Shown here: positions 1 through 16,541 of the stretch, piece by piece | Numbering within the stretch: the stretch's first letter is position 1 | Layout: each line of letters starts with the position of its first letter | DNA from: Pseudomonadota bacterium | GTDB taxonomy: Bacteria > Pseudomonadota > Gammaproteobacteria > Steroidobacterales > Steroidobacteraceae | Assembly (NCBI GenBank): GCA_021816775.1 | Contig: JAKAXA010000013.1 | Coordinates: forward strand, 1 to 64,000 | DNA length: 64,000 nt | Direction: 5' to 3' | Notes under the pieces: model-generated | Seen by the model: only the letters and a program-made list of their open reading frames with translations | Database searches by the model: none | Told to the model about the DNA's origin: nothing | Made by a program: the position numbers and the translations under genes

Positions 1-39
1 CGAGAATTTTTCCTTCTTACAATCGAACGACAGCCTCTC

Positions 40-420
40 TTGCTGCATCTCCCCGCGGATCTCGAAACTCTCCTGACGCACGCGGGGGACTGCGCGCTGG
101 TCGTTGGGGAGTCGGGCTCCATTCTGTTCGCCACCGATCCGGCCTGCCGCCTGCTCAAGTATGCGCCGGGTGCGCTCGACGGTCAGATTGTCGAGTCCCT
201 CATGCCCGAACGGTATCGCGTGGCGCACATCAGCCACCGCCTGCGCTTCACGGACGAACGCCGTATGCGGCCGATGGGAACAGGTCTCCCGCTGGTCGCT
301 CTCTGCAAGGACGGTTCCGAGGTGCCGGTGGACATCAGCTTGAATCCGGTTCAGCGTGGGCTGGTCACCCTCACTGTCGTCGGAATCCAGGTGCGAGAAT
401 CCGGTTCCTCCCTCAGATGA
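40..420 (+). CDS. PAS-domain protein (short, sensor fragment)
   Basis: ORF 126 aa; PAS-like sequence 'DCALVVGESGSILFATDPACRLLKYAPGALDGQIVESLMPERYRVAH...KDGSEVPVDISL'. Confidence 0.7.
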   Translation: MLHLPADLETLLTHAGDCALVVGESGSILFATDPACRLLKYAPGALDGQIVESLMPERYRVAHISHRLRFTDERRMRPMGTGLPLVALCKDGSEVPVDISLNPVQRGLVTLTVVGIQVRESGSSLR

Positions 421-542
421 ATACGATCCACCGTCGGCTGACGGTGACCTGGTAGCGGCCCGGACGCTTGAGGTCCGAGTGGCCAATCCCCTGGTCAGCG
501 GGAGCCGGGACACGAGCGGGCGCGATGAGGCAGAAGCACGGC

Positions 543-860
543 TTATCGCGACCCGCGATCCTTCTTCTCGCGCGCCGCTTTGATCTCCTCGCTCAATCTG
601 CGCAGGTCATCCAGCGTGCGCTTCCTCGGGCGGGGCTGACCGTCCGCCGCTAATGTGGATCTATTGTATGGATCATGCGGCGGCGCGGGATCCCGCAGGT
701 CGTTGCCGTCGCAGCTCAAATCCGAGCCGAGCGTCCTCAGACGCTGAGTATCGATGTCACGGTCGAATCCGCCGGTTTCGCCTTGCCACTCCCACGTGGC
801 ATTTCCCCGCTCATCGAATGCGACCCGCCCGGAAGGCTTGCGCGGTTTGTGGGTGCTCAT
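543..860 (-). CDS. Conserved hypothetical protein (starts MSTHKPRKPSGRVAFDERGNATWEWQ)
   Basis: Within ORF 543..944; the likely start at 860 overlaps the stop of a short upstream DsrE-like ORF (ATGA). Confidence 0.6.
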   Translation of the reverse strand: MSTHKPRKPSGRVAFDERGNATWEWQGETGGFDRDIDTQRLRTLGSDLSCDGNDLRDPAPPHDPYNRSTLAADGQPRPRKRTLDDLRRLSEEIKAAREKKDRGSR

Positions 861-991
861 ATTCCAACTCTTCTTGACAATAGGATAGTACCGTCGGGTC
901 TTGACTTCTGCAGCGCCACTGCCAAGCGCAGCGCGTTGTAACACCGCTCGGTTCCGTAGGGTGGGTCATTGAGGACGAACAAGACCTTCAT
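857..991 (-). pseudogene. Truncated DsrE/DsrF-like protein N-terminus (44 aa)
   Basis: Manual translation from ATG at 991: MKVLFVLNDPPYGTERCYNALRLAVALQKSRPDGTILLSRRVGI*; resembles the DsrE-family N-terminus and then ends early. Confidence 0.55.
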
Positions 992-1021
992 GGCAACCTC
1001 ATCGCACGCGCAGGAAGGAAT

Positions 1022-1270
1022 TCAGTCGCCCAGCACGCGTCGACGCTCCTCGAACTCCTCCTTGTTGAATTCCCCGCGCGCATACCGCTCCCTGAGAATG
1101 TCGAACGCAGTGCGCGCAGGAGGCGCGTGCCGTGGCGTCTCGAACGCGTGCCAGGAGCCGCCTAACCAGCGCACGAGCAGCACGATGGCTGAAATGAGCG
1201 CGGCTAGAACGAGGATCATGATCAGCGGACCGAAAATCATGCCGTACCACCCTGCGCCCCAGCCCATCAT
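1022..1270 (-). CDS. SHOCT-domain small membrane protein
   Basis: TM segment followed by C-terminal 'AFDILRERYARGEFNKEEFEERRRVL'. Confidence 0.8.
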   Translation of the reverse strand: MMGWGAGWYGMIFGPLIMILVLAALISAIVLLVRWLGGSWHAFETPRHAPPARTAFDILRERYARGEFNKEEFEERRRVLGD

Positions 1271-1463
1271 GGACGGGCCACAGGCCTAGCCTCTGGGCTC
1301 AAGGGGTTGCTGCGCCCAGAGCACATGTGGCGCAGCGGCGCCGCTGGATGCGGCCAGGAATGTCCACGTCGATGCCTTATTCATGTTCATCCTCCGTTCT
1401 CGAGCCGATCCGAGGGGTACGGGCCCGCGGGCACCTGTTGCGCGCATCGTGCCCGGCGAAGGG

Positions 1464-2136
1464 CTAAGCGGCTGTGGACGCTTCGACCGGCAACCCGGCG
1501 GCTTTCCATTCCGGATAACCCTCCTCGAGACGATACGCTTCGAGGCCTTTGGATCTCAGCACCGCGACCGCCTCGTAGGAGAGAACGCAATAGGGTCCCC
1601 GGCAATATGCAATCACCGCGTGGTCCTTCGGCAGACTTGCCAAGGCTGCGTCCAGCTCTGCGAGTGGAGCGTTGATCGCACCGGGCAGGTGGCCGTGCAA
1701 AAACTCATCGGCCGGGCGGACATCCAGCAGCGTCACCGATTCACTGCGCAGTCGCTCGATCAGCTCCTCCCGGGAGATCGGCTCAAGCGCATCGCGCGCG
1801 CGGAAATAGCTGTTCATGATCCGCTCGATCTCGGCAACGTTGCGCTCGCCGACCCGGCCGAGCGATCCAAGGAGGGCGACGACGTCGGAGTCCGAGATCA
1901 GGCTGTAGAGCATCCGCTTGCCCTCGCGGCGGGGCTCAGCCAAGCGCGCGCCGCAGGATCTGCAGGTGCCGCGAGGCATTGGCGAGCGAAAACCCGGTGC
2001 GCACAGCGAGTTCTTCGACGCTGCGCTCGCCCTGAGCGATCAGCTCGAGAAGCTCCAGTCGGTGCGGATGCGCGAGGGCCGCCGCGATATCGGCGAGGTG
2101 CCCATAAACGCGATGCTTGGGCGTATTGGTTGACAT
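1464..2136 (-). pseudogene. ArsR-family HTH + rhodanese regulator, frame-disrupted
   Basis: ORF 1936..2136 (ArsR HTH 'LAHPHRLELLELIAQGERSVEELAVRTGFSLANASRHLQILRRA') continues in another frame as ORF 1464..1979 ('LAEPRREGKRMLYSLISDSDVVALL...' then rhodanese 'VTLLDVRPADEFLHGHLPGAIN...VIAYCRGPYCVLSYEAV'). Confidence 0.75.
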
Positions 2137-2150
2137 GGCAGTGCCTTAAG

Positions 2151-2174
2151 TCAATCATTCCGCGAACTGATTGA
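2151..2174. promoter_or_regulatory. Inverted repeat TCAATCA-N10-TGATTGA between divergent ArsR-rhodanese and MBL genes (candidate operator)
   Basis: Perfect 7-bp arms at 2151-2157 and 2168-2174. Confidence 0.5.
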
Positions 2175-2204
2175 ATAAGCAAGCATCCAAGGCGAGGAAA
2201 TGTC

Positions 2205-2944
2205 ATGATCCTGCGTCAGTTCCTGCACAAAGATCCGATTGCCGTGTCTTACCTGCTGGGATGCGCAGGCAAAGGCGCCGCCGCGATCGTTGATCCGGTT
2301 TTTCCGATTGAGCCCTACCCGATGCCGCAAGGGTCGCCGGGACACCGATCCGGCTCGTGGTCGATACCGACATTCATGCCGATCACCGATCAGCCGGCCG
2401 GGAGCTGGCCGTTAGAGCGGGAGCGGATTACGCGCTGCATGCCTCGGCCGAGACCGGTTTCGCATTTCGCGGTCTGACGGACGGCGAGCGGATCGAACTC
2501 GGCAATGTGGCGCTCGATGTCCTTCATACCCCGGGGCACACGCCGGACCACCTCTGCCTGCTGGTCACCGACCGGACTCGGGCCCAGGAACCCTGGTGCG
2601 TGCTGACTGGGCACACGCTCATGGTAGGCGATGTAGGGCGCACCGAGCTCGCCTCCGATGCCGCGAGCGGTGCCCGGGCATTGTTCACGAGCCTCGAGCG
2701 GCTGAAGGCTCTGCCGGACCATATCGAAGTCTTGCCGGGCGCCGTGGCCGGCTCGGTGTGCGGCCGCGGCCTCTCGGGAAAGCCGATTTCCACGATCGGA
2801 TTTGAGCGGCGCCACAACGCCGCTTTCGGTATTGCTGAAGCGGGGCAGTTCGCCGCGTTCATGCTCGAGAACATACCGCCGGCACCCCCTGAAGCGATGG
2901 AGCTACGCGCCGGGAACGCCGGGCTGCCGGGCGCGCCCGCATGA
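2205..2944 (+). pseudogene. MBL-fold metallo-hydrolase (persulfide dioxygenase / Blh-like), frame-disrupted
   Basis: N-terminus in ORF 2205 ('MILRQFLHKDPIAVSYLLGCAGKGAAAIVDPVFPIEPY') and remainder in ORF 2357 ('VVDTDIHADHRSAGRELA...HTPGHTPDHLCLLV'); reading 'DAARVAGTPIRLVVDTDIHADH' requires a 1-nt correction near 2320. Confidence 0.75.
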
Positions 2945-4212
2945 GGGCAGAGGCGAGCGGTGCCGGCGCAATGGCAGCGCATCCGCGTGGCATTGCGGCC
3001 AACCGGAGTCAGTTCAGCCTGCAGATGCTGCAGGTGTTCTTCGTCGGCTTGATCATCGCCATGGATCGCGCCGTTCTGCCGGCGGTCGCGCGGGATTTCG
3101 GAGTGGCGCGCGGCGCGTTTCTCTTCCTCGCGAGCTTCGTGCTCTCCTTCGGCCTGGTCAAGGGCGCCCTCAATCTCCTCGCCGGCGGGCTCGCGGACCG
3201 CTTCGGTCGCAAGCCCGTGTTGCTTGCCGGATGGCTGGCCGCCATTCCGATTCCGTTGCTGATCTACGTCGCGCCGAACTGGTGGTGGATCGTTGCCGCC
3301 AACGTGTTTCTCGGCGTCAGTCAGGGATTCACCTGGACGATGACAGTCACCAGCCAAATCGACCTCGCGAGCAGCCATCAGCGCGGACTCGCGGTCGGGA
3401 TCAACGAGGCGACCGGGTATGTTGCTGTGGGGTTCGCGGGTCTCGGGGCGGCGTTTCTCGCTGAGCACATCGGTGCCCGACCGGCGTTGCTGCTGTTTGG
3501 CCTCGCCACGATCGGTGCGGCGCTTGCGACGCTCGTGCGAGTGCGTGACACCCTTGCGTGGGTCCATGCGGAACACGCCGAGATGCACGGAGCTCGGTTG
3601 GCCGGTGATGCGCCGAGTCTTGGCGCGACCTTCCTCCGACTTTCCTTTCGCGACCGAGCGGGAAGCGCGCTGTGCCAGGGCGGCGTCGTCAACAAGATCG
3701 CCGATACCCTGGTGTGGGTGATGTTCCCGCTGTACTTCAAGGCGCACGGCGCGGGACTGCTGGAGATCGGATGGTTGACGGGGGTGTACGCGGTGATCTG
3801 GGGGCTCTCTCAGCTCTGGACCGGGCACCTAGCCGATCGTATCGGCCGCAAGCGGCCGGTGGTCGCGGGGTTCTTTCTGCTGGCCGGGGGGATCGTCTTG
3901 ACTGCGCTTGGGCAAGGGGAGGGACTTTGGTTGCCCGCCGCCGCAATCATGGGCGTCGGGATGGCTCTCCTATATTCGAACCTGATCGCCGCAATGTCCG
4001 ACCGGGCGCCGCCCCTCATTCGCGGCAAAGCCCTGGGCACGTACCGCTACTGGCGCGATACAGGCTACGCCATTGGCGCGCTGCTTCTGGGGTCGATCGC
4101 GCAGCTCGCCCACGCAGCGTTGCCGGCGTTTTGGATCACCGCGGCACTCGTGGGCGCCTCTGGCCTGTGGATTGCTCTCGCAGTGGAAGACAGCGGCAGG
4201 ATGGTAAGCTAA
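2941..4212 (+). CDS. MFS transporter
   Basis: 423 aa polytopic; 'LADRFGRKPVLLAG' and 'LADRIGRKRPVVAG' MFS loop motifs. Confidence 0.85.
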   Translation: MRAEASGAGAMAAHPRGIAANRSQFSLQMLQVFFVGLIIAMDRAVLPAVARDFGVARGAFLFLASFVLSFGLVKGALNLLAGGLADRFGRKPVLLAGWLAAIPIPLLIYVAPNWWWIVAANVFLGVSQGFTWTMTVTSQIDLASSHQRGLAVGINEATGYVAVGFAGLGAAFLAEHIGARPALLLFGLATIGAALATLVRVRDTLAWVHAEHAEMHGARLAGDAPSLGATFLRLSFRDRAGSALCQGGVVNKIADTLVWVMFPLYFKAHGAGLLEIGWLTGVYAVIWGLSQLWTGHLADRIGRKRPVVAGFFLLAGGIVLTALGQGEGLWLPAAAIMGVGMALLYSNLIAAMSDRAPPLIRGKALGTYRYWRDTGYAIGALLLGSIAQLAHAALPAFWITAALVGASGLWIALAVEDSGRMVS

Positions 4213-4688
4213 CCAACAGAAACAGAGGCCGCGGCAAGGTGCAGTGCCACGACGACAGTAGTCGGCAAACTCTATTCCTGGCCCACAAGCGAGCCCTTGC
4301 CGTTGCCGAAGAGTTCCAGCGACGGTTCGACGCCACGGTCAAGGCGACGAGGCAGGGAGGGAGGGCCAGTTCGACGTGGAGATCAATGGCGTGCTCGTGG
4401 AATCGCGCGGTCAGAGCTACCGGGAACAAATGAGGCCCGTTCTGCCACCCAAGACCGCGACAACGATTGCCGTGATCGAGCGGCGGCGCGCAGCCTCGCA
4501 ACTCAAGCAAATAGCGACAGCAACGCGCCGAGTGCTGCGCCGGCGAGGACTGATTACCGCGCCCGAGCGGGACGCTGCGTGCGCACCAGCGAATGAGCAA
4601 TCAGCCGAGCGGCCCCAGAGCGCTACCGACGCGAAAGCCATCTGCCAGGGACACGGCACCTCTGTCGGTACTGCACCCGCAGGCGCGG

Positions 4689-4997
4689 CTACGCCGGGAT
4701 GCCGTAGGTGATGCGTCCGAGCAGATCTTCGACGCGTTCAGCGCCGTCGGGGGTCTGCGCTACAAGAATGGGCCTCTCGCCCTGCAGCTCCCAATGCGGG
4801 GTCGTGAGAAACCGCGCGGCATCCTCCGCGAAAAGCTCAATAGCTTGAGCGCAGACTTTGGCGAGATGGGGCGGCAAATCAGACGAAGGCGCATTGAGCA
4901 ATCTCGTCAGGCGAGTCAGCAGCTCGCCATCGCGTTCCCGCGCCACAGTCAGCTCCGCGAGGATCGCAGCGAGACTGGTGCATTCTTCGAGAGACAT
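4689..4997 (-). CDS. MbcA/ParS/Xre antitoxin C-terminal-domain-like protein (DUF2384-like)
   Basis: C-terminus 'FLTTPHWELQGERPILVAQTPDGAERVEDLLGRITYGIPA' resembles the DUF2384 toxin-binding domain. Confidence 0.55.
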   Translation of the reverse strand: MSLEECTSLAAILAELTVARERDGELLTRLTRLLNAPSSDLPPHLAKVCAQAIELFAEDAARFLTTPHWELQGERPILVAQTPDGAERVEDLLGRITYGIPA

Positions 4998-5230
4998 CGC
5001 CCCATCCTGACCGGAGTGTACCGAGGATCATAGCGCATCTGAGGCAGCTTTTTTAATGACTCATACACCCCCAACCCATGGTCGGAAACCGCGTGGCACC
5101 GCGCCGCGGATCACTGCGCGAGTTTGCCTTTTGAACCGAGCCGACTTGGGCTTCCGGGCAACGCACGCGATGGGCCCGAGGGGGACAGTGGGCATACATT
5201 GATCGATACGGGTTTTGGCGCTGGACCGGC

Positions 5231-6293
5231 TCATCGGGGCGGCCGTTCGAGCGGATGCGGCTGCAAAAGACCCTCGGCAGGGTGATCCTCGAACGGCTCC
5301 TCACTCCGCACGTAGGCGCAGCACATCGAGCGACTTGTGCCGTGATTGATCGGCCAGCGTGAAGATGCTGGCGCGTGCGAGGACCGCCGATGTCAGGAAG
5401 CCGCTTCTCAGACTCTGGCCGGAGTAGCGCTCGGCATCCAGACCCACTTTCGCCGCGAGGCGCTTCACGATGAGCGCGACGCTCTGGGCAGTGAGGCGCG
5501 ATCGTCCCACCCGGTCGCCGCGGTGGAGGCGCCGGAAGAGCGGGCCGGTTGCGATGCCCGCGAGGACCTGCCAGTCGAGCACGGCCTGAACGGGACAGTA
5601 GGGCGAGTTGGGTACGCGCGGGATGGCGATAACCGCTCCCTCGCCCTCCTGGTCAGTCTTGGAGCTCGCAATCAGCACAGCGAGGCCTTGCGGGCGCACG
5701 CTGAGATCCTCGACATCGAGCGCGACGAGCTCCGAGCGCCGTAGCGCACCGGCAAAGCCCAGGAGCAGCAGCGCGCGATCGCGCAAACCCTTCATCGTCT
5801 GCGGTTCGGCAGCGTCCACCGTCCGTTTCACCTCCTCATCGATCGCAGGGGCCTTCTGCGCCGGTGGGCGCTTCCAAGCGCGGCGGATCCCGCGCAGGAC
5901 CTCTGCGACCTCGATCGCATCGTGGCGCGAGAGGTGGTGTGCCCCGATGTGCATCAGGCGAATCGCTGCCAGGCGCCGTCCGAGCGTCGAGGGGGCGCGA
6001 CCGAGTTTGGCTTCGGCCGACAAGTAAAGCGCCACCGTGTGGGCGGTGGCGGGGAGCGGAACGAGTTTGAGGGGCCGGCACCAGGCTTCAAATGCTCGCC
6101 AGTCAGCTTCATAAGCGCGCCAGGTAGCGGCGGCGCGGCTGCTTCGGACGTAGGCGGCGCCGGCTTCGCGGGCCTCCTCGAGCGAGAGGATAGGGAGCGT
6201 ATGCCGCGCGGCGCGGCGAGATGCATGGGCGCGCGGATCGGTGTGCTGCCTTATCGGCGTGCTGTCGGTCGCTTGATCGAGTCGTGTGGCCAC
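5231..6293 (-). pseudogene. Tyrosine recombinase/integrase, frame-disrupted at C-terminus
   Basis: ORF 5301..6293; 'LRDRALLLLGFAGALRRSELVAL', 'SLRSGFLTSA', 'SRHKSLDVLR'; catalytic-Tyr segment 'YVRSEEPFEDHPAEGLLQPHPLERPPR*' lies in the next frame (to 5231). Confidence 0.75.
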
Positions 6294-6806
6294 GAGGTCG
6301 TGCGAGGCACGGGATTCGGTGAAAGGAACGGGCGACTGAGCCCGTCCGTGTTACGTATTCGCGATCGATCAGTGGCCTGAGTGGTCAGCCGTGTCCTCCA
6401 TGTCTCGAATGCAAAATTCTTGCACCATGGCACGAGGAAGGGCAAGCTCATAAGTTGGATTAGAATCCGTGAAGCAGCCGTCCCCCCTTGCAACAGGTAC
6501 ACCGGCGTGGCGCCGGAGGAGGTCAACAACACACGCACCAACCGAATGCTTGAGCTGAACATTCCTGGTTCGGGGAAGAGGTGCAGCGGACCCGTACGGT
6601 GAGGCGTCCGGGCCCGCCGCGGCGACAGAGTCGTTCTTCGGCGCATCTGTGGTCGCCCGTAGTATTTGCGCCTCCCTGATTCCGCGTCAAGAATCGGGCA
6701 GGTCCCCGAGGGTGCAATATTGCCCGCCGGAGCGTCGGATTCCCTCCCGCGTCTCGGGCGGCCGATTGGGGTTGCGCGTCCTGTGCGCTGCCTCGAAGGG
6801 GATCTT

Positions 6807-8831
6807 ATGCAATCGAGTAACTCCCGCGCTCGGCGCCCGGCTGCGAACGACGGCGCAGCACGCGTACCAACTCCGGATCCGAACGCAGACACGGACGCAG
6901 CATCCCCGCCGGGCTCGGCGCATCCGGATGACATTCCGTACTCGCCGGGAGCGCGCCTTAGACTCGGGCCCATTCCGGTGCAGCTCGTGCACGCGCTCTC
7001 GCTCGAGCGGCTGCTGGTCAGGGACCTTCAGACAGGCGAGACGCGCATCGTCGCGCGCGCCGCGGTAGGAGCGATCGAATCAAGCTCCGCGGAGCCGGAT
7101 CCGCCCCGTGCCGCGGGCACAAATGTCAACGACGAACAGGTGGCTCGGCTAACCGCGCGTGAAGAAATGCTAAAGCCCTACCTCGGTGGACGCGCGCTGA
7201 CTCGCAAAGAGGCACGACGCTTGGGCAATGCCTTGGGTGTTTCTGCTCGCACGGTGTGCCGGTGGCTGCAGCGCTACCGACACGCTGGCGACATCACGGG
7301 GTTGATGCCGAGACCTCGGGGCGTGCAGTCGGGGCAACGCACGCTCGATCCGGCCGTGGACGCCATCATTCGCTTCGCCGTCGCAGGGAAGCTCAGGAGC
7401 ACCGGGAACTGCTCGGTTCGCTCGGTGTATGAGGCGATTCGCGGCGACTGCGAGGCCATCGGCAAACCGGTGCCCGCACGCGCGACGGTCCTCAGTCGGG
7501 TCAAAGCGCTCAAGGCGGATCCGCAGTGTCTGCCTCCTGAGGTTGCCCAAGAGGTGCGCAGCCGGCGGCGCTTGGTGCGCGGTTCCGCTGAAGCCCCTCA
7601 CGCGCTCTCCCGAGTGGAAATTGATCATACGCTCGTCGACACACATATCGTTGACGCTCGGGATCGCGAGCCTTTGGGGCGCCCCTGGCTCACAATTGCG
7701 ATGGATGTCTGCACGCGCGTCATCATGGGTTTTGTGCTCACCCTCGAGGCGCCGAGCCGACTGAGTGTGGCGCTGTGCCTGCGGCAAGCCATTTACCCGA
7801 AGGAGCAGTGGCTCGAGAGAGTCGGCGCGAAAGGGCCTTGGCCGGTATACGGCCGTCCGCGCTTGATCTACACGGACAATGGGGGCGAGTTCCGCTCGCC
7901 GTCGTTTCGGATGGGCTGCAAGCGCCAGCACATCGAGAACGGCTATCGGCCCGTTCGCACGCCGCGATTCGGCGGCAGCATCGAGCGCCTGATCGGAACG
8001 TTCATGCGACGCATGCGTCTCATTCCGGGCAACACGTTCAACGAAATTCTCGGCAAGCGCAGTCCGTTTCCGGCGCAGGAGGCAGTTCTAACTCTCGAGG
8101 ACCTCGAGCGCTGGTTCGCCCACGAGATCACCGCCTATCACCACGAACGCCATCGCACCCTCGGCATGACGCCTCTTGCCGCCTGGGAAGCCGCGTGGCG
8201 TACGCCGCACGGGATGGTGGTGCCCCCACACCCAGCCGACCCGCACACGCTCTTCACCGACCTCCTGCCGCATGCGCTGCGGGCGATCAAGCCGGTCGGC
8301 ATCGACTGGCACTGCCTGCGCTATCGCAGCGATGCCGTGGCGCCGTATGTCGATCCCGACACCAAGCGCGTGATTCGCTTCGATCCGCGCGACATTTCCT
8401 CCGTATGGCTCGAGTTACCCGGGGGAGGACACCTGCAGGTGCCCTGGGTGAATGCCGCTTGGCCGCGCCTCTCGCTCTGGGAGTGGAACGAGATTCGCAC
8501 GCGCGATCGGCGGCGCGCCAAGGGCGCTGACCCGGAACTCGTCCGGCAGTGTCTCGCGGAGAACGATGCGCTGATTGCCGAGCAAGCTGCCCAAGGACAG
8601 TTGCGGGCGCGCCGCCGCCGCGCCCGCGCAGCGCGCTGGCACTCGGAGGAAGCGAACCAGGAGGCTGCACCGGCACTTGAACCCCCTGCGCACCATCCGC
8701 AGCGCAAGCCGGGCAAACGCGGACGAAAAGCGCTGCGTCAAATGCTTCCATTGCCGCCGCTGCCGCGCACCCAACTCGAAGTGACCCGAACCTCGGTGGA
8801 AAGTGCCGTGCCGTTTGAAGTGTTGGAGTAG
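6807..8831 (+). CDS. tniA: TniA-like DDE transposase (Tn7/Tn402/Tn5053 group)
   Basis: HTH region 'GNALGVSARTVCRWLQRYR' plus rve core 'SRVEIDHTLVD...RLIYTDNGGEF...GSIERLIGTF' (DDE). Confidence 0.85.
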   Translation: MQSSNSRARRPAANDGAARVPTPDPNADTDAASPPGSAHPDDIPYSPGARLRLGPIPVQLVHALSLERLLVRDLQTGETRIVARAAVGAIESSSAEPDPPRAAGTNVNDEQVARLTAREEMLKPYLGGRALTRKEARRLGNALGVSARTVCRWLQRYRHAGDITGLMPRPRGVQSGQRTLDPAVDAIIRFAVAGKLRSTGNCSVRSVYEAIRGDCEAIGKPVPARATVLSRVKALKADPQCLPPEVAQEVRSRRRLVRGSAEAPHALSRVEIDHTLVDTHIVDARDREPLGRPWLTIAMDVCTRVIMGFVLTLEAPSRLSVALCLRQAIYPKEQWLERVGAKGPWPVYGRPRLIYTDNGGEFRSPSFRMGCKRQHIENGYRPVRTPRFGGSIERLIGTFMRRMRLIPGNTFNEILGKRSPFPAQEAVLTLEDLERWFAHEITAYHHERHRTLGMTPLAAWEAAWRTPHGMVVPPHPADPHTLFTDLLPHALRAIKPVGIDWHCLRYRSDAVAPYVDPDTKRVIRFDPRDISSVWLELPGGGHLQVPWVNAAWPRLSLWEWNEIRTRDRRRAKGADPELVRQCLAENDALIAEQAAQGQLRARRRRARAARWHSEEANQEAAPALEPPAHHPQRKPGKRGRKALRQMLPLPPLPRTQLEVTRTSVESAVPFEVLE

Positions 8832-10026
8832 CGCCATGGCCCAGAACGCAATCCCAGGGCGAAGCGGGAAATTCTCCCAGCAGCGACCACTGGCAGCCAC
8901 GCGCAAGTCGTCAGCGCGTCGAAAGTCTCAGGGAGCCGCCGGACGGTCGATCCCGGCGGGCATTCGCACGGCGAGGATGAGTGAGAAGGCCCGAGCGACC
9001 AACTGGGCGCACCTCGATCCGGCCATCCGCCCGATCGCGGCACAGAAGGATCTTGCTCGCGCACGCCACATCCTGAAAGACCTGTACGTGAGCCATCCGC
9101 CCGCGCAGCACGTTGAGCGGCAGATCGAGCAACTGATCCGACTCCCGCGGCGCATCCGCATGCCGGGACTCTTCCTCTGTGGCGAATCGGGCATGGGCAA
9201 GACGCATGTGTTGCGCCGCATCGAACGGCGTCACCCTGAACGGGACGACGCGACGACGAAGCGGCACATCCGCCCCGTGCTCTATGTGCAGGTGCCGGCG
9301 GGGCCCGATCTACGCACGCTGCGGCGCACCGTGATCGATGAGGCCAACATCCCCTTCCTCGATCATCCGTCAAAGCCGCTGCTGCAATCGGTATTGCGCC
9401 GGGGCCTCGCGGCCGCCGGCACCGAGCTCATCGCGCTCGATGAGATCCACAACATCGTGCACACCGAGGGTAAGCAGCGCAGGTGGTTGCTCGACTGGGT
9501 ACGCTGTCTTTCGAATGAGACACAGCGGCCCATCGTGCTCGCAGGCACCGAGGAATTCGAATCGGCCATTCTCTCCGACCCGCAACTCTCGAGCCGATTC
9601 CCGATCGTGCGCCTGGCACGGTGGACGGAAGGTCCGGATCTGGCGGCATTCCTACAGGGTTACGAGCGCGCCTGTCCGCTGCGCCTGGCCTCGCATCTTT
9701 CGGATGGGCCCCTGATGCGCGCGCTGCTCGATGAGACCGAGGGTCTTACCGACACGATCGTCCGCTCGCTTCAGGCCGCAGCGCTGGTGGCCATCCGCGA
9801 GGGGACCGAGCGCATCGTGCCGGAGTATTTGAGCTGGTGGCGAGACCCGCCGCTGCTCGCGTACTACGAGGCAGGAGATGCGGAACAAGAGAGCCTTGCG
9901 TTGGCCAGAGCCTGGCTCAAGGATGAGCGACGTGGCGCACCGTCGCCCTCGGCGCCGGCGGTGCGGCGTTTTCGCAATCGTGCGAGCCTCAGGGCCGAGG
10001 GCGGGCGATGCACCGGCTCGTTGTAG
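8803..10026 (+). CDS. tniB: TniB/TnsC-like AAA+ ATPase
   Basis: Walker A 'LFLCGESGMGKTHVLRR', Walker B 'ELIALDEIHNI'; directly after tniA. Confidence 0.85.
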   Translation: MPCRLKCWSSAMAQNAIPGRSGKFSQQRPLAATRKSSARRKSQGAAGRSIPAGIRTARMSEKARATNWAHLDPAIRPIAAQKDLARARHILKDLYVSHPPAQHVERQIEQLIRLPRRIRMPGLFLCGESGMGKTHVLRRIERRHPERDDATTKRHIRPVLYVQVPAGPDLRTLRRTVIDEANIPFLDHPSKPLLQSVLRRGLAAAGTELIALDEIHNIVHTEGKQRRWLLDWVRCLSNETQRPIVLAGTEEFESAILSDPQLSSRFPIVRLARWTEGPDLAAFLQGYERACPLRLASHLSDGPLMRALLDETEGLTDTIVRSLQAAALVAIREGTERIVPEYLSWWRDPPLLAYYEAGDAEQESLALARAWLKDERRGAPSPSAPAVRRFRNRASLRAEGGRCTGSL

Positions 10027-11351
10027 CACAGGCGCCGCTGCGACCGCGGGCGCGACTCAACTTGGCACCGCGCCTGCATGCCGAGGAAACGTTGTCCTCG
10101 TGGCTCGAGCGTTTCGCAGCCCGCTATGGCATGAGCATCCGGGAGTTGTTCCTCTGGCTCGGCTATCCGGATTTTTTCCAATTCGCTCGCAACCCTTTCG
10201 ATCTGGACGTATTGCAGCCTGCCGACCTGGCCGGAGTGCTCGCCGCCCACACGGGCATCGGCGCGGAAGTGATCGCGGCGCAGGGCATGGATGGGGCGAG
10301 TGCGTTGCCCCCTGAACGTCGGCGTGCGTTTTGTCCCGAGTGCTGGGTGGAGGAGGGTCCTTATCGGCGCTTCGAGTGGGCCCGCGGCTGGTCGCTGGTG
10401 TGTCGTCGCCATCGGCGACTCTTGAGTGAATGGCCGCGGGCCAAGGGATCGTTCGTCCACTGGTCCGAGGAAGCGTGGAGCGTGTTTTATGGCGACACGG
10501 GTGCATGGCGGGACTTACGCCCGTCTTGGCAATGCGAGACTTGGCAGAGAATCTGTGCGCACCTCGGCGTCGAGCCGCGTGCGGAGTTCCTGCGTGCCTG
10601 GCCCTGGCTGCTCGAGCTTTCGCAAGGCCGGCCGAACAGCGGCAGCACGGCGAGACGGTCGGCCCCGAGCAAGTGCGTCCTCAAGGACAGGTATTACCCG
10701 CAGGGCGTGCCGGTCGATGAGCTCACCGTCAAGCAGGACCTGGTTCTCTACGGGATGATCCGGTTCCACGGTTCATCGCTCCTGCAATCACTCGACGGCA
10801 CGACCTCACGGGACGATCTGATGGAAGACACCTTGGGCGGATGGATCTGCAGTGTGCGCACGCCCGCCGCGCCGTATGGGATCCGGCTGTTCGCGGCGAC
10901 GGCAGCACGCCATCTCTGGGTGCGACTCACCCAGGGCCACTGGCGGTGCGCCCGGTACCCAATCCTGGAACAAGTCGTGGAGCACTGCGAGCGCTGGAAC
11001 GATGAGGATTGGTGGCTCGAGCAGCGGCTGCGGACCTGGCCGCCGGCGCTGGCGGCCTCGGGTCGAGAGCTCTTTCGCAGAACGAATCCGTTCGTGATGC
11101 TGCCGCCCTGGGACCGCTGCCGAGAATGTCTGCGGGGCGTTCAGGGAGCGGTCCGGGAGGCACTCACGATCTGCCTGCCCGAGAGCTGGCGATGTATTAT
11201 CTGGGACCCCTCCGTGGTGAGTGAGCTCAATGAACTCATCGCGCGGCTGAGTCGTCCGGCAAGGCGCCGAGCAGATCCGCCGCGGCGCTCGACTGCACGG
11301 CGCCCGATTGATAGTAGCGAAGGAAGGTCGCAAGGCTGCGGTGCCCGGTGA
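10008..11351 (+). CDS. tniQ: TniQ-family target-selection protein
   Basis: 'LHAEETLSSWLERFAARYGMSI', 'FCPECWVEEGPYRRFEWARGWSLVCRRHRRLL' TniQ zinc-binding signature. Confidence 0.85.
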   Translation: MHRLVVAQAPLRPRARLNLAPRLHAEETLSSWLERFAARYGMSIRELFLWLGYPDFFQFARNPFDLDVLQPADLAGVLAAHTGIGAEVIAAQGMDGASALPPERRRAFCPECWVEEGPYRRFEWARGWSLVCRRHRRLLSEWPRAKGSFVHWSEEAWSVFYGDTGAWRDLRPSWQCETWQRICAHLGVEPRAEFLRAWPWLLELSQGRPNSGSTARRSAPSKCVLKDRYYPQGVPVDELTVKQDLVLYGMIRFHGSSLLQSLDGTTSRDDLMEDTLGGWICSVRTPAAPYGIRLFAATAARHLWVRLTQGHWRCARYPILEQVVEHCERWNDEDWWLEQRLRTWPPALAASGRELFRRTNPFVMLPPWDRCRECLRGVQGAVREALTICLPESWRCIIWDPSVVSELNELIARLSRPARRRADPPRRSTARRPIDSSEGRSQGCGAR

Positions 11352-12438
11352 GGGCCATCGCCTCCTTCAAGGGCACGGCCTGCCGGCCGGCCTCCGTGAC
11401 GAATCCCGAACGCAGCGAATGCGCTCCGAAGTCGCCTTCGAGCTTCGCGAGCGCCGCCCGACGCTTGACGATGAGCCATACGGCCTGACCCGAGAGCCGC
11501 CCGCCCGGGCGGGTCTTGTGGAGCCGCCGGAAGATCGGCCCTGAGGTCACCCCGGAGGCGCTGAGCCAGGCGGTGAGCGCCGCGGCGGCCGCGCCGACGA
11601 TGGGTTTGACGGCATCCGCTTGGCTCCCGGTGCCCGTTTGGTCGGTCTTCGAATGCGCCATGCGATAGAGATACGTTCGGTCGTCGACTTTCTCGAGGTG
11701 TTCCATCAGGGCTCCGGCGACCTCCGAGCGCCGGCGGCCGCCGGAGGCGAAGGCGAAGAGGAGGAGGGCCCGATCGCGAATGCCCTTGACCCCGTCGGTA
11801 CACGTCGCGAGAAGCGCCGCGAGCGGATCGCGGGTCAAGGCGGTCTTGGCTTGCGGCCGCACCCCACGGGTCGCGTGGCCCCGGCGAATACGCCGCACGA
11901 CCTCCTGCACCGCCGGATCGCGCACCGGATTGGGGAGCTCGCGCAGTTGGTGGGCTTTGGAGAGCACCGCGAGGCGGTGCATCACCGTGGCGAGCGCCGG
12001 AGCGCCCCGTTTGGCCTTGAATCCGCCCGCGACGAGCGCCGCATCGATCGCCGCGGGCAAATCGTGCACCAACGTGCCCCCTGCGGGGCTGGCGATCGCC
12101 GAATCGCCGCCCGCAGGGCTGCGCAGCACGTGATCGACGAGGAACTGCAGCACCACGGGCACCGGCACGGGGAGGGCAAGGGCCGCGTGATAGCGCAGCT
12201 GAAACCACGCCGCCCAGTAGCGGAGCGCGCTCGCGTAGCTGCGCACGGTGTTCGTCGATTCGCCTTCCTTCAGCAGCGCCACAACCGAGGCTTGCGTCTC
12301 GGCGTGCAGCACTTGCGGGTCGAGGGCCTCCACGGTCGCGTGCAGCACGAGGCTCGTGGGCCCCGCGGTGCCTCCCGCAGGGGGAGTGCCCCTGGCCGGG
12401 GCGGTTGCACGGCGGCGTCGTTGTGTCATACTTCTCAC
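11236..12438 (-). CDS. Tyrosine recombinase (candidate cointegrate resolvase, TnpS-like role)
   Basis: 'IRDRALLLFAFASGGRRRSEVAGA', 'AHSLRSGFVTEAGRQ', 'TGHRSLATFLRYYQSGAV' catalytic R-H-R-H-Y region intact. Confidence 0.85.
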   Translation of the reverse strand: MRSMTQRRRRATAPARGTPPAGGTAGPTSLVLHATVEALDPQVLHAETQASVVALLKEGESTNTVRSYASALRYWAAWFQLRYHAALALPVPVPVVLQFLVDHVLRSPAGGDSAIASPAGGTLVHDLPAAIDAALVAGGFKAKRGAPALATVMHRLAVLSKAHQLRELPNPVRDPAVQEVVRRIRRGHATRGVRPQAKTALTRDPLAALLATCTDGVKGIRDRALLLFAFASGGRRRSEVAGALMEHLEKVDDRTYLYRMAHSKTDQTGTGSQADAVKPIVGAAAAALTAWLSASGVTSGPIFRRLHKTRPGGRLSGQAVWLIVKRRAALAKLEGDFGAHSLRSGFVTEAGRQAVPLKEAMALTGHRSLATFLRYYQSGAVQSSAAADLLGALPDDSAAR

Positions 12439-12470
12439 AGAATATGCGAAATATATCGCTTAACTCAAGC

Positions 12471-12505
12471 GTTATTCACGATAACGCTCTCTTATCGTGA
12501 GTAAC
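12471..12505. promoter_or_regulatory. loxP-like tyrosine-recombinase core site: GTTATTCACGATAA-CGCTCTC-TTATCGTGAGTAAC
   Basis: 14-bp inverted arms (12471-12484 / 12492-12505) with one mismatch and a 7-bp asymmetric spacer, between divergent recombinase and KfrA-like genes. Confidence 0.7.
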
Positions 12506-12528
12506 CTGACGACAGGGCAGGGCACCGA

Positions 12529-13593
12529 GTGACCACCGAATCTCCCCCCGAGGGTAAGCCGGCTACCCGGCACCGCTCCGACGCCCCCTATGAGTCCCCG
12601 CTGCCTCCGGCGCGCCGTTCATCGGTCGCGGAGCCGCCGTCGGAGAACGAGGAGAACTCGCCGGAGCGCCTCGCAGCCGGGGCACCGCGGGCGCGGCGCC
12701 TCTCGGCACCCGATGTCTTCGCCGCCGCCGATGCGCTGCTCGTCGAAGGCCACCGGCCCACCATCGATCGGGTCCGGGTCCATCTGGGGCGTGGCTCGCC
12801 CAACACCATCAACGAGCACCTCGACACCTGGTGGCGACAGCTCGGCGCCCGGATCCGGGACCTCCCCGGACAGGAATTCCCGCAGCTGCCCGAGCGCGTG
12901 GCGCACACGTTGCAGCTGCTCTGGAATGAAGCGCTAAAAAGCGCGCACGAGGCGTTGCATGAGGCCGTAACGACACGCGATGAAACGCTTCGGCAGCGGG
13001 AAACGTCGCTGGGGGATCGCGAGCGACAACTGGAGGAGGAGCGACAGGCCCTGGCGGCCCGTGGCTCAGCGCTCGAGGAGAGTCTTGCATTCGCCCGCAC
13101 GCAGCTTGCTGAATCCAATCAGCGCGCCGGCGCCCTCGAGCAGGCCCTGCGCGAACGGGATGAGTCGATCGCGAGCCTGCAGCGGCGGCTCGAGCCGCTC
13201 GAGGCGCAGACCACGACGCTTGCCGAGCGACTTGAAGCCGAGCAGACGGCCCGCCTGGCGGAGCGTGCCAAATTTGATGAGCGCTATGATGCCGCCGAGC
13301 GGCGCTGGCTCACCGAGGTCGACCAGGCGCGCGAGCGACTCAAGACTCATGAAAAGCAAGCTCGTGCAGACGCCGCGGATCGTGCTCGACTGCAAGATGA
13401 GCTGCAGCGCGCGAGGCGCGAAGCACTCGATGCTGTTCACGAACTGAAAACCGCGCACGCGGTGAACGAGGAGCTGCGTGAGCGTATCAAGGCCTTCGCC
13501 GATCGTTCGCAGATGTCCAGCATCCCGCGCCGGAAGTCTAGCCCGTCCCGCCGTGCCCCCTCGGCACGCAAGCGGAAGAACAAGACCGAGTAG
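12529..13593 (+). CDS. KfrA_N-type DNA-binding coiled-coil protein (TnpT-like candidate)
   Basis: 'VFAAADALLVEGHRPTIDRVRVHLGRGSPNTINEHLDTWWRQLG' KfrA N-terminal domain followed by a long coiled coil. Confidence 0.8.
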   Translation: MTTESPPEGKPATRHRSDAPYESPLPPARRSSVAEPPSENEENSPERLAAGAPRARRLSAPDVFAAADALLVEGHRPTIDRVRVHLGRGSPNTINEHLDTWWRQLGARIRDLPGQEFPQLPERVAHTLQLLWNEALKSAHEALHEAVTTRDETLRQRETSLGDRERQLEEERQALAARGSALEESLAFARTQLAESNQRAGALEQALRERDESIASLQRRLEPLEAQTTTLAERLEAEQTARLAERAKFDERYDAAERRWLTEVDQARERLKTHEKQARADAADRARLQDELQRARREALDAVHELKTAHAVNEELRERIKAFADRSQMSSIPRRKSSPSRRAPSARKRKNKTE

Positions 13594-13638: not shown

Positions 13639-14718
13639 ATGCCGACCGCGAAAGAGTTACTTGCAGGACGAACGCTCACCAATGGCTGGAAAGTCACGCA
13701 GAGGGTCACGCACGCGGCCGGTGAGACCGGCGGTCACTTCTCCACCGGCTATCTCGTGCAGTCTCCTTCGGGGAAGCAACATTTTCTGAAGGCGATCGAT
13801 TTCGAAGTGGCCATGCGGGCCCCAGACCCGGCCCGGGCCCTTCAGGCTTTGACCGAGGCATTCAACCTCGAGCGCGACATTCTGAACCTGAGCAAGAGCA
13901 AGCGCATGAGCCATGTCGTCACGGTAATCGAAGACGGCACCGAGAACGTATCCATCCCCGGCACACCGCCAGCCGGTCCACCGCAAACCGTTCAGTACCT
14001 CATTTTTGAGCTCGCGCACGAAAGTCTGCGGCACATGGTCACGGTCTCGAAGCGGCTCCCGATGTCGCAGGCGCTTTCGGCCCTCCACAACATTGCCAAC
14101 GGGCTGCGACAGCTGCACGGTGCGCAGGTCGCCCATCAGGACATGAAACCCTCGAACGCGCTGCGCTTTCCCGACGGGTTATTCAAAGTCTGCGATGTTG
14201 GACGGGCGTCGATGAAGGGGCGAGCGGCGCCGCATGATGGCTTGCATGTTGCAGGCGAGCGCACTTACGCTCCACCGGAGCTGCTATACGGCCAGGTGGA
14301 TCCGGATTTCGTCGTACGTCGGTTAGGCTGCGATGCCTATCTACTGGGGAGCCTCGCCGGTTTTCTGATCACCGGCTTGCCGATGACGGCGATGATCATC
14401 GATGAGCTCGATCCGGCGGCCCGGCCGACGACATGGACCGGTTCCTATGCTGGTGCTCTCGGTCAGGTTCGAGCGGCCTACGCGCGAGCGATCGACCGTG
14501 TGGCGAACGAGATTCCGGCTGATGCACCGTATCGAGACGATCTGCTGGTGTGCATCCGACAGCTCTGCGATCCAGACCCCGCTCTGCGGGGCCACCCGCT
14601 CACTCGGGCAATGCTTGCTGGCGTCGGGAACGTCTATGATCTCGAGCGCTACGTTTCAATCTTCGATCGGCTGTCGTACGAGGCCAAGATCTACGAGCGA
14701 CGCAAGGCCAGTCAATGA
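13639..14718 (+). CDS. Hanks-type Ser/Thr protein kinase
   Basis: 'HFLKAID' (VAIK-type Lys), 'VAHQDMKPSNAL' catalytic loop, 'VCDVGRAS' (DFG variant), 'TYAPPELLYG'. Confidence 0.8.
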   Translation: MPTAKELLAGRTLTNGWKVTQRVTHAAGETGGHFSTGYLVQSPSGKQHFLKAIDFEVAMRAPDPARALQALTEAFNLERDILNLSKSKRMSHVVTVIEDGTENVSIPGTPPAGPPQTVQYLIFELAHESLRHMVTVSKRLPMSQALSALHNIANGLRQLHGAQVAHQDMKPSNALRFPDGLFKVCDVGRASMKGRAAPHDGLHVAGERTYAPPELLYGQVDPDFVVRRLGCDAYLLGSLAGFLITGLPMTAMIIDELDPAARPTTWTGSYAGALGQVRAAYARAIDRVANEIPADAPYRDDLLVCIRQLCDPDPALRGHPLTRAMLAGVGNVYDLERYVSIFDRLSYEAKIYERRKASQ

Positions 14719-16247
14719 GCATCAGTCAGCCAGACGCCAACAGGCGCCTTCTACCGCGATGGCGGCCGTCAGGAGCGACGATATCGGCAGGCGAGCTCGC
14801 GAGTAGCTCTACCGTACAGAAGGACGCCGAGCCAGATGCGCACTTCGAGGAGCGTAAGCTCGAATGGGAACACGAGCATTCCATCGAGGTTGCCGCCGAA
14901 CTGGTTGCCTCAGGCATCGTGCTCGGTCGACTCAATGAAGTCGAGCCTGCGGTGCGGTTGCTAGCGGACAATGCGTCCGATGCCACCCCGAGCATCCGGG
15001 CGGTCGCTCGGCGTGCGCTTGGTGAGCGCCCAACAGGGCCAGCGGAGTCACCGAGACTTCGTCCCGGACGCCTCGATCCGACAGCCATTTACAGCCGAAT
15101 CAGTGCATTGCGTCGACACGTGCATCTGCACCCGCGCGATGCCTACGCATGGGTCGACCTCGCGCGGCTTTACACCATCTTGGGCCAGACGTCGAGCGCC
15201 GATCGGGCGATCCGCATCGCCATCCGCCTCGCACCGGAGGATCGGTTCGTATTGCGATCGGCCGTTCGGTACTTCGTGCACGTCGAGGATCCGCCGGCTG
15301 CACAACGGCTCCTGAACGGCGCGCGCGCAACACGGGTCGATCCCTGGCTCATCGCGGCGGAAATCTCGGTATCGCAGGTCGCCAATCGGCGCAGCCTGAC
15401 GGCATCCATCGGGCAGCGCGGCCTTGACCATTCCCTGTGGGCTCCCCGGAGCAGTTCCGAACTGGCGGGTGCCCTTGGGACTTTGCTTCTTGAGGAGGGT
15501 GCGACGCAGAAGGCGCGGCAATTCTTTCGACGCAGCCTCGAGGATCCGACCGAGAACGCGATTGCCCAAGCTCAGTGGGCGAGTCAACGCACCTCCGGTC
15601 TCGTCGTGCCTGCACTATTGCTCAATCAGCCGACCACGTATGAGGCTCGGGCGCTGCGCGCTCGCCTCGACGGCCGATGGGAGGCTGCGATCTCGAGCAG
15701 CTGGGAGTGGGCGGACTTCGAGCCGACTTCAAGTCGACCCTTAATGATGGGGTCCTATGTCGCAAGCGTGGTGTACGGGGATGGGGCCACCGTACTCGAT
15801 TTCAGCGAACGCGGTCTGAATGCGGAACCACACAATCCGTGTTTACTAAATAACAAAGCGGTTGGACTCGCCTATCTCGGTCGAGTCTCGGAGGCGATAA
15901 CGATTCTCGCCAAAGTCGTGATCGACGCGAGCCCACAGTTCATTCAACCAGCACTTTATGCGACGAGCGGGCTTCTGGCGTTTCGTGCTGGCGACTTCGC
16001 GGCAGGACGGAAACTCTACGAAAGGGCTGCGACTCACCCCTACACCAAACGGGATCGCGATATGCGCGTTCTAGCTCTGTGGCACTTGGCGCTGGAGGAG
16101 GCTCGGGCGCGGACTGACCAGGCCGAGGCTGCCGCTGCGCGCGCGGAGCGCGCTAGCAAGGACACCAAGCTCGCCGAGATAGCGGCACTTCGAAAACGTC
16201 TCGAGGAGGTCAAAAGCGAAGCCCCTGGGTACCAGAGCCGCCATTGA
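14715..16247 (+). CDS. TPR-repeat protein with N-terminal HEAT-like stretch, coupled to kinase
   Basis: ATGA overlap with kinase stop (14715-14718); TPR-like 'DAYAWVDLARLYTILGQTSSADRAIRIAIRLAPED', 'NPCLLNNKAVGLAYLGRVSEAITILAKVV'. Confidence 0.7.
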   Translation: MSISQPDANRRLLPRWRPSGATISAGELASSSTVQKDAEPDAHFEERKLEWEHEHSIEVAAELVASGIVLGRLNEVEPAVRLLADNASDATPSIRAVARRALGERPTGPAESPRLRPGRLDPTAIYSRISALRRHVHLHPRDAYAWVDLARLYTILGQTSSADRAIRIAIRLAPEDRFVLRSAVRYFVHVEDPPAAQRLLNGARATRVDPWLIAAEISVSQVANRRSLTASIGQRGLDHSLWAPRSSSELAGALGTLLLEEGATQKARQFFRRSLEDPTENAIAQAQWASQRTSGLVVPALLLNQPTTYEARALRARLDGRWEAAISSSWEWADFEPTSSRPLMMGSYVASVVYGDGATVLDFSERGLNAEPHNPCLLNNKAVGLAYLGRVSEAITILAKVVIDASPQFIQPALYATSGLLAFRAGDFAAGRKLYERAATHPYTKRDRDMRVLALWHLALEEARARTDQAEAAAARAERASKDTKLAEIAALRKRLEEVKSEAPGYQSRH

Positions 16248-16264
16248 TTAAGTGCACAAATGCA

Positions 16265-16457
16265 AATCATTTGTGTCACCCGGGTCAATAGCGCGAATCA
16301 TGGATGTCACCCGTGAGGACGGTCGGTGACATCAATGATTAGTCTGGCGCCAGCTGATCGCGACCCGCGTCGGGAATTGTGTCACCGGACCGCCAACCCA
16401 TTGATTCGCTGAGCACTATCGGTGACACCAATGAATCGACGGGTGACACGAATAAAC
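16265..16457. repeat. Cluster of six GGTGACA(C/T)nnATGATT-type motifs in both orientations (candidate transposase-binding end repeats)
   Basis: Copies at 16265-16280(-), 16296-16311(-), 16325-16340(+), 16375-16386(-, partial), 16421-16436(+), 16442-16457(+, degenerate 3' half). Confidence 0.65.
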
Positions 16458-16513
16458 CGTCCTCACAGCCCGCGGCGACAACATGTCGGGAGGCTATTCG
16501 CGGTACGCCAATT

Positions 16514-16541
16514 ATTTACCATAATATACATTATGCGCACC
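16514..16541 (-). other. dif: Chromosomal dif (XerCD recombination) site
   Basis: Reverse complement GGTGCGCATAATGTATATTATGGTAAAT matches E. coli dif GGTGCGCATAATGTATATTATGTTAAAT at 27/28 positions. Confidence 0.85.

Follow-up and report, generated by a model that had tools for sequence, protein, structure and literature searches.

The window analysed here, a stretch of 64,000 nucleotides at the start of contig JAKAXA010000013.1 from a Steroidobacteraceae genome (GCA_021816775.1), holds the right part of a large transposon which, in our judgment, is quite probably a replicative element of the TniABQ (Tn5053/Tn402-like) type that chooses the sites of tyrosine recombinases as its targets and resolves its cointegrates with a tyrosine recombinase (TyrR) and a KfrA-like protein at a dyad. 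The genes are arranged in the order tniA-tniB-tniQ, followed by the gene for TyrR, which converges on tniQ with overlapping 3′ ends and diverges from a KfrA_N gene, and then by a kinase and tetratricopeptide repeat (TPR) gene pair. The host belongs to an uncultured bacterial genus, and the evidence base consists of metagenome-assembled genomes (genomes are cited below by G numbers and contigs or loci by L numbers). An earlier note on this DNA had described a hybrid transposon at 6807-13593; this range holds the transposition and resolution core, but the element runs on through the kinase and TPR genes to 16467, and both the dif site and the targeting pattern reported below fall outside those coordinates.

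Probable Target Sites of the Element

The right end of the element (16263-16467) is composed of a terminus, 5′-TGTGAGGACGGTTTATTCGTGTCACC (complement of 16442-16467), and an array of ATTCATTGGTGTCACC-type repeats at +21, +117, 147 (inverted) and 178 (inverted), a spacing that is repeated in relatives; these repeats are presumed to be TniA binding sites. Alignable sequence between elements with differing cargo ends at 16467 of the window. The chromosomal dif site (16514-16541, minus strand), the type of site at which dimeric chromosomes are resolved, begins 47 bases beyond this terminus and agrees with E. coli dif in 27 of its 28 bases, its center lying 60 bp from the terminus, which is on the XerD side. 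Its identity is supported by the GC skew, which flips sign at this site, and also by the orientation of a few octamers resembling FtsK-orienting polar sequences (KOPS), and a single dif-like site is present in 20 of the 22 genus genomes where any was found.

Twelve right ends were located in total, eight of which lie at 54-67 bp and one at 124 bp from dif, two at TyrR/KfrA cores, and one without a site. The distances from terminus to dif center are 60 (the window), 67, 60, 60, 59, 64, 54, 67, and 124 bp; at two TyrR/KfrA modules foreign to the element, the terminus lies 61.5 and 60.5 bp from the core center. All of these elements point their right end toward the site, and those at dif do so from its XerD side except in G767 (XerC side); the spacer sequences between terminus and site differ among most genomes. 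A genus-wide search with the right-end pattern, blind to dif, returned the same ends plus one in G694. Of randomly chosen positions in these sequences, 0.14% come to lie 50-70 bp from a site of this kind, a comparison that is not a formal probability since the copies are related and the 11 placements represent fewer than 11 independent events.

This relatedness among the copies weighs against the targeting interpretation, as do several other points: the right end in G694 (L169) has no site in its 139-bp flank, one right end stands as far as 124 bp from dif, the left end of the window's element lies outside the window so that its own duplication cannot be read, and the nameable genomes are metagenome assemblies, whose bins may mix strains. 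Taken with these points, the observed positions still make it probable that the element picks its targets by sensing a tyrosine recombinase site.

Traces of Transposition in Relatives

TGT...ACA terminal inverted repeats, internal repeats and a 5-bp duplication of the target are displayed by relatives of the element in G772 and G763. In G772, TGTGC adjoins the element at its left end (L155:4981) as well as at its right end (L168:5456), and the two contigs are taken as one insertion on the basis of the matching duplication and the split target, an interval that separates another TyrR gene from its core. An empty counterpart of this site is found uninterrupted in G795 (L183), where the left-flank match extends to 8564 and the right-flank match starts from 8560, thus overlapping by exactly 5 bp (TGTGC). 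G763 contains a decayed element of 7.4 kb with both ends seen, its right end being 59 bp from dif and its target duplication being imperfect (ACCCC/ACCGC). Furthermore, the G772 element at a TyrR/KfrA core is 98.9% identical over 5.46 kb to a G783 element at dif, so that both types of target have been entered by what is almost one and the same transposon.

These traces bear on two explanations in which the position beside dif has nothing to do with target choice. The first is a single ancestral insertion near dif that was inherited vertically, so that the association is mere history; the divergence of the element between G000 and G674 (about 80% nucleotide identity) indeed resembles that of backbone genes. 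We nevertheless hold this to be very unlikely, since it is contradicted by the nearly identical elements on two kinds of target in G783 and G772, by the G783 bin that carries two clearly different elements, both at dif, by the one element lying on the XerC side, and by the empty site with its 5-bp duplication. The second is an island integrated at dif by XerCD, in which the tni genes are mere cargo, and the location itself would fit, dif being a known integration site for elements of the IMEX type. Here we give the proposal next to no credence, because only one dif is present per site, with none at the distal end, and because the TGT/ACA ends, the 5-bp duplication, the offset of about 60 bp and the insertions at a core other than dif all speak against it; integration by XerCD was rejected on end structure and target site duplication.

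The TniABQ Core and Its Probable Resolution Module

All five genes that the earlier note had reported were recovered at their coordinates by open reading frame check and Pfam profiles. tniA (6807-8831, plus strand) encodes a DDE transposase of the TnsB/TniA type, 674 amino acids in length, with Pfam Mu-transpos_C, rve, and HTH domains; it matches TnsB in the PDB (E 1e-34) and is 31.5% identical to Tn402 TniA of R751 in a pairwise comparison. tniB (8836-10026, plus strand) encodes an AAA+ ATPase (Pfam TniB, E=1e-41, and AAA_22), its reading frame opening at 8803 and its likely start codon lying at 8836, and tniQ (10008-11351, plus strand) encodes a protein of 447 amino acids (Pfam TniQ, E=2.5e-12) that is the presumed target adaptor. 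No TnsA was found with the element. The three genes follow one another in an operon-like order as in R751, and since in R751, the carrier of Tn402, tniA-tniB-tniQ are followed in the usual way by a serine resolvase, the label "hybrid" is a fair one for an element in which the TyrR/KfrA pair occupies the slot of the Tn402 serine resolvase, as had been proposed. Upstream of tniA, a non-coding leader of 458 bp (6349-6806, plus strand) is strongly conserved, with long near-invariant blocks in an alignment of five elements; a search of the window with Rfam, this leader included, gave no match, and the leader could possibly be a regulatory RNA or an end-proximal site.

TyrR (11236-12438, minus strand) belongs to the Pfam Phage_integrase family (E=2.4e-16) and resembles Cre and XerC in the PDB. 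Alignment with XerD revealed the active site R, HxxR, H, and Y, the Lys column being one that did not align. The neighboring gene (12529-13593, plus strand) encodes a KfrA_N coiled-coil protein (Pfam KfrA_N, E=7e-24) regarded as a TnpT-like helper, whose match to the N-terminus of TnpT reaches 35% identity over 95 amino acids (E=1e-6). The gap between the two genes contains a predicted recombination core (12475-12501), TTCACGATAA-cgctctc-TTATCGTGAG, the inner dyad of which, CGATAA-N7-TTATCG, is shared by the majority of Tni elements and by plasmid-borne TyrR/KfrA modules that stand alone. Both arms of the core have undergone matched changes in several modules, for example CGGATAA/TTATCCG on plasmid pA82, and one arm deviates in L029, L070, and L071.

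In Tn4651, rst is located between tnpS and tnpT (PMC7157771). The resemblance to this layout that had been pointed out in the earlier note is real, in that a divergent tyrosine recombinase and coiled-coil helper with related N-terminus enclose a dyad, built like tnpS-rst-tnpT, and a conserved dyad at the place where the recombination core is expected makes a resolution module of the TnpS/TnpT kind well supported. Cointegrates would accordingly be resolved by TyrR and KfrA at this dyad. The differences from the Tn4651 type are that the recombinase belongs to another clade and that it accompanies TniABQ instead of a Tn3 transposase.

The main rival to this assignment is that TyrR is a target selector, and not, or not only, a resolvase, which would bring in TniQ/TniB after binding to dif or to TyrR-type cores. 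A precedent exists in TnsF, an inactivated tyrosine recombinase in the targeting of Tn6022 at comM (PMC10293859); moreover, the inner arms of the target sites (ATAA...TTAT) resemble the element's own core, and no TniABQ element whose assembly spans that region lacks TyrR. On the other hand, TyrR has kept all catalytic residues that could be aligned and has its own conserved core and helper gene, which are features of working resolution, and dif is expected to be already bound by the host XerCD. The two roles are not mutually exclusive, and selection of targets by TyrR appears to us a less likely reading, though one to be taken seriously, than resolution by TyrR with target choice by the transposition proteins.

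Origin of the Tyrosine Recombinase

The suggestion that the module had come from Tn4651-type transposons did not survive phylogenetic analysis. TyrR is only 28% identical to TnpS of pWW0, and in the maximum-likelihood tree the TyrRs of Tni elements form one clade (100/99) nested in the clade of plasmid TyrR/KfrA modules (100/98), with the TnpS proteins grouping in a clade of their own (100/100) and with XerC, XerD, and lambda Int placed far off. Direct grouping of the Tni TyrRs with TnpS, and with it a Tn3/TnpS origin as direct ancestry, was rejected by the approximately unbiased topology test (AU p=8.5e-5), but a sister relation between the whole TyrR-module clade and TnpS was not (p=0.15). 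Relatives of KfrA occur on 45 plasmids, and most of those listed also have a relative of TyrR, usually nearby. The nesting in the tree and the rejected TnpS grouping suggest that the TyrR/KfrA module was probably acquired from plasmids and not from a Tn3-family transposon. Grouping with phage integrases, which had been named as an outcome that would tell against the hybrid reading, was not seen, since only 3 of 50,697 phage records match TyrR. On a Variovorax plasmid (L013:1341-5016), TniQ- and TniB-like genes lie near a relative of TyrR, possibly an independent pairing.

Distribution and Conservation

The unit was assembled seven further times, whole or in part, across six other genomes of the genus, and the tniABQ-TyrR-KfrA order that the earlier note had proposed to look for elsewhere was found, partly or wholly, in G674, G783, G736, G774, G795, and G772. 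In G674 the complete gene series up to the TPR gene is present, with 79-87% amino acid identity except for the less similar tniQ (74%); G783 has two copies of the unit, and G736, G774, G795, and G772 have whole or partly assembled units. Such conservation of order and orientation in relatives indicates that the genes are not a chance neighborhood. tniA-like fragments or partial units are also present in G768, G796, and G767, and TniA matches occur in 11 of 58 genus genomes at E<=1e-30, some of them to a more distant TniA. A scan of 85,462 species genomes based on the TniA alignment yielded eight loci, all in metagenome bins; it relied on exact matches to two peptides, so that remote homologs could have escaped it. 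The same bacterial family also has nine TniAB loci that are more distant, two of them in genomes that carry this element as well; TyrR, KfrA, dif, and core sites are all lacking from their surroundings, and the association is thus specific to this lineage.

Left Part, Cargo, and Neighboring Elements

The left part of the element (1-6348) is largely shared with related elements, and because the sequence that relatives have in common on this side exceeds 10 kb, the left end must precede the window, which opens at the contig start and contains the rightmost 16.5 kb of the element. No left end was picked up by a position-weight scan just upstream of tniA, where 1-6348 proved to be cargo inside the element, for which reason a weak end-like match at 5038 was likewise discarded. 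The left end was likewise not found in the 67-kb contig of the near-identical relative G794. Located in this part are genes for a major facilitator superfamily (MFS) transporter (2941-4212), an Xre/MbcA/ParS antitoxin (4689-4997), and TyrR2 (5274-6293), a broken tyrosine recombinase that is frameshifted before the catalytic Tyr. TyrR2 is absent in four related elements, and a TyrR2-related remnant lies across dif in G770 (L117). The MFS transporter gene closes a cargo set at 1464-4212 whose first two members, an ArsR-rhodanese protein and a metallo-beta-lactamase-fold protein, were named by eye; similar sets accompany left ends in L155 and, in part, L154, and one lies close to dif in G771 (L118). 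Compared with this last set, the first two genes of the set in the window look broken by frameshifts.

On the right, the cargo comprises a protein kinase (13639-14718, plus strand; PADLOC PDC-M71A, E=2e-100) and a TPR protein (14715-16247, plus strand; PDC-M71B, E=2.5e-113), together a candidate defense pair in PADLOC. In G783 (L070), and possibly in G774 (L075), different cargo takes the place of this pair (13639-16247).

Other elements are also seen around dif. Seven genomes have, on the XerD side of the site, element-like ends of a second family (GGTTACCGAAATCTCG...CCGACA) that terminate 46-48 bp from the dif center (L114, L115, L118, L119, L120, L122, L127), and remnants of the CCGACA type are found at a similar place, adjoining the right end, in L070, L071, L113, L116, and L125. 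Left ends of the present element family abut termini of the second family in L154 and L158, and in L157 and L160 they lie 3-8 bp from the right end of another element, which suggests that elements pile up in tandem. In G763, an IS1202-like transposase gene (L113:402-1928, minus strand; recognized by eye) adjoins the XerC side of dif.

Mechanism and Relation to Known Systems

In the scenario that we favor, TniA, TniB, and TniQ would join the TGT...ACA ends to the target, and with no TnsA the product would be a cointegrate, as judged from the families concerned (Tn5053, PMC11406308), which TyrR and its KfrA-like helper would resolve at the dyad in place of the usual serine resolvase. XerCD-dif or a TyrR/KfrA core would be sensed, and insertion would take place about 60 bp from its center with the right end facing the site. 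Tn5053 has been described as sensing res sites that are occupied by their resolvase (Minakhina, 1999, as cited in PMC11406308), and recognition of recombination sites by elements of this type is presumed to proceed via TniQ (PMC11406308). The counterpart here would be dif occupied by XerCD, or a core occupied by its TyrR, and the sensor would most likely be TniQ acting on the complex of recombinase and DNA, in line with the proposal for Tn5053 and res. We lean toward the broader view that the element represents a distinct TniABQ lineage that senses tyrosine recombinase/DNA complexes generally, with a fixed offset and polarity, and in which the type of resolvase and the type of target were switched together.

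The closest parallel is with Tn5053/Tn402, the "res site hunters," with which the element shares the tniA-tniB-tniQ genes, the lack of a detected TnsA, TGT/ACA ends with repeated subterminal sites, the 5-bp duplication, and insertion beside a site-specific recombination site. These transposons, in contrast, use serine TniR and res and target the res sites of serine resolvases, whereas the present element has a tyrosine recombinase with KfrA and a dyad core, its targets are dif and TyrR cores, and its TniA has diverged as far from Tn402 as noted above. The IS1202 family (ISAjo2 group) of insertion sequences targets pdif/dif, 5 bp from the XerC side (PMC10132070), and likewise combines a TnsB-like transposase with TGT/ACA ends, a 5-bp duplication and insertion at dif; it is a single-gene insertion sequence, unlike the multi-gene transposon described here, which lands about 60 bp from the center, mostly on the XerD side (all dif cases but G767), and also at TyrR/KfrA cores. 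Tn6022 TnsF, or Tsy, is comparable as a tyrosine recombinase-like protein associated with a TniQ transposon (PMC10293859), yet it is without a catalytic site and targets comM, whereas TyrR is intact.

No TniABQ transposon with a tyrosine module that targets tyrosine recombinase sites at about 60 bp was found in the literature, subscription papers being outside the search, and nothing was found there that links Tn5053/Tn402 with XerD and dif; among papers on "Tn7-like" and "dif site," titles and abstracts describe no such element. Targeting of dif (IS1202) and hunting of res sites (Tn5053) are already known, but a TniABQ element that hunts tyrosine recombinase sites looks new. As its resolvase and its target are both of the tyrosine class and the offset is constant, the element amounts to a natural swap experiment, from which it is predicted that the transposon reads the recombinase-DNA complex and not the sequence. 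dif, which almost every circular chromosome needs, would then be a landing pad for multi-gene transposons with defense-like cargo, which, compared with IS1202, land mostly on the other side of the site and at another distance from it.

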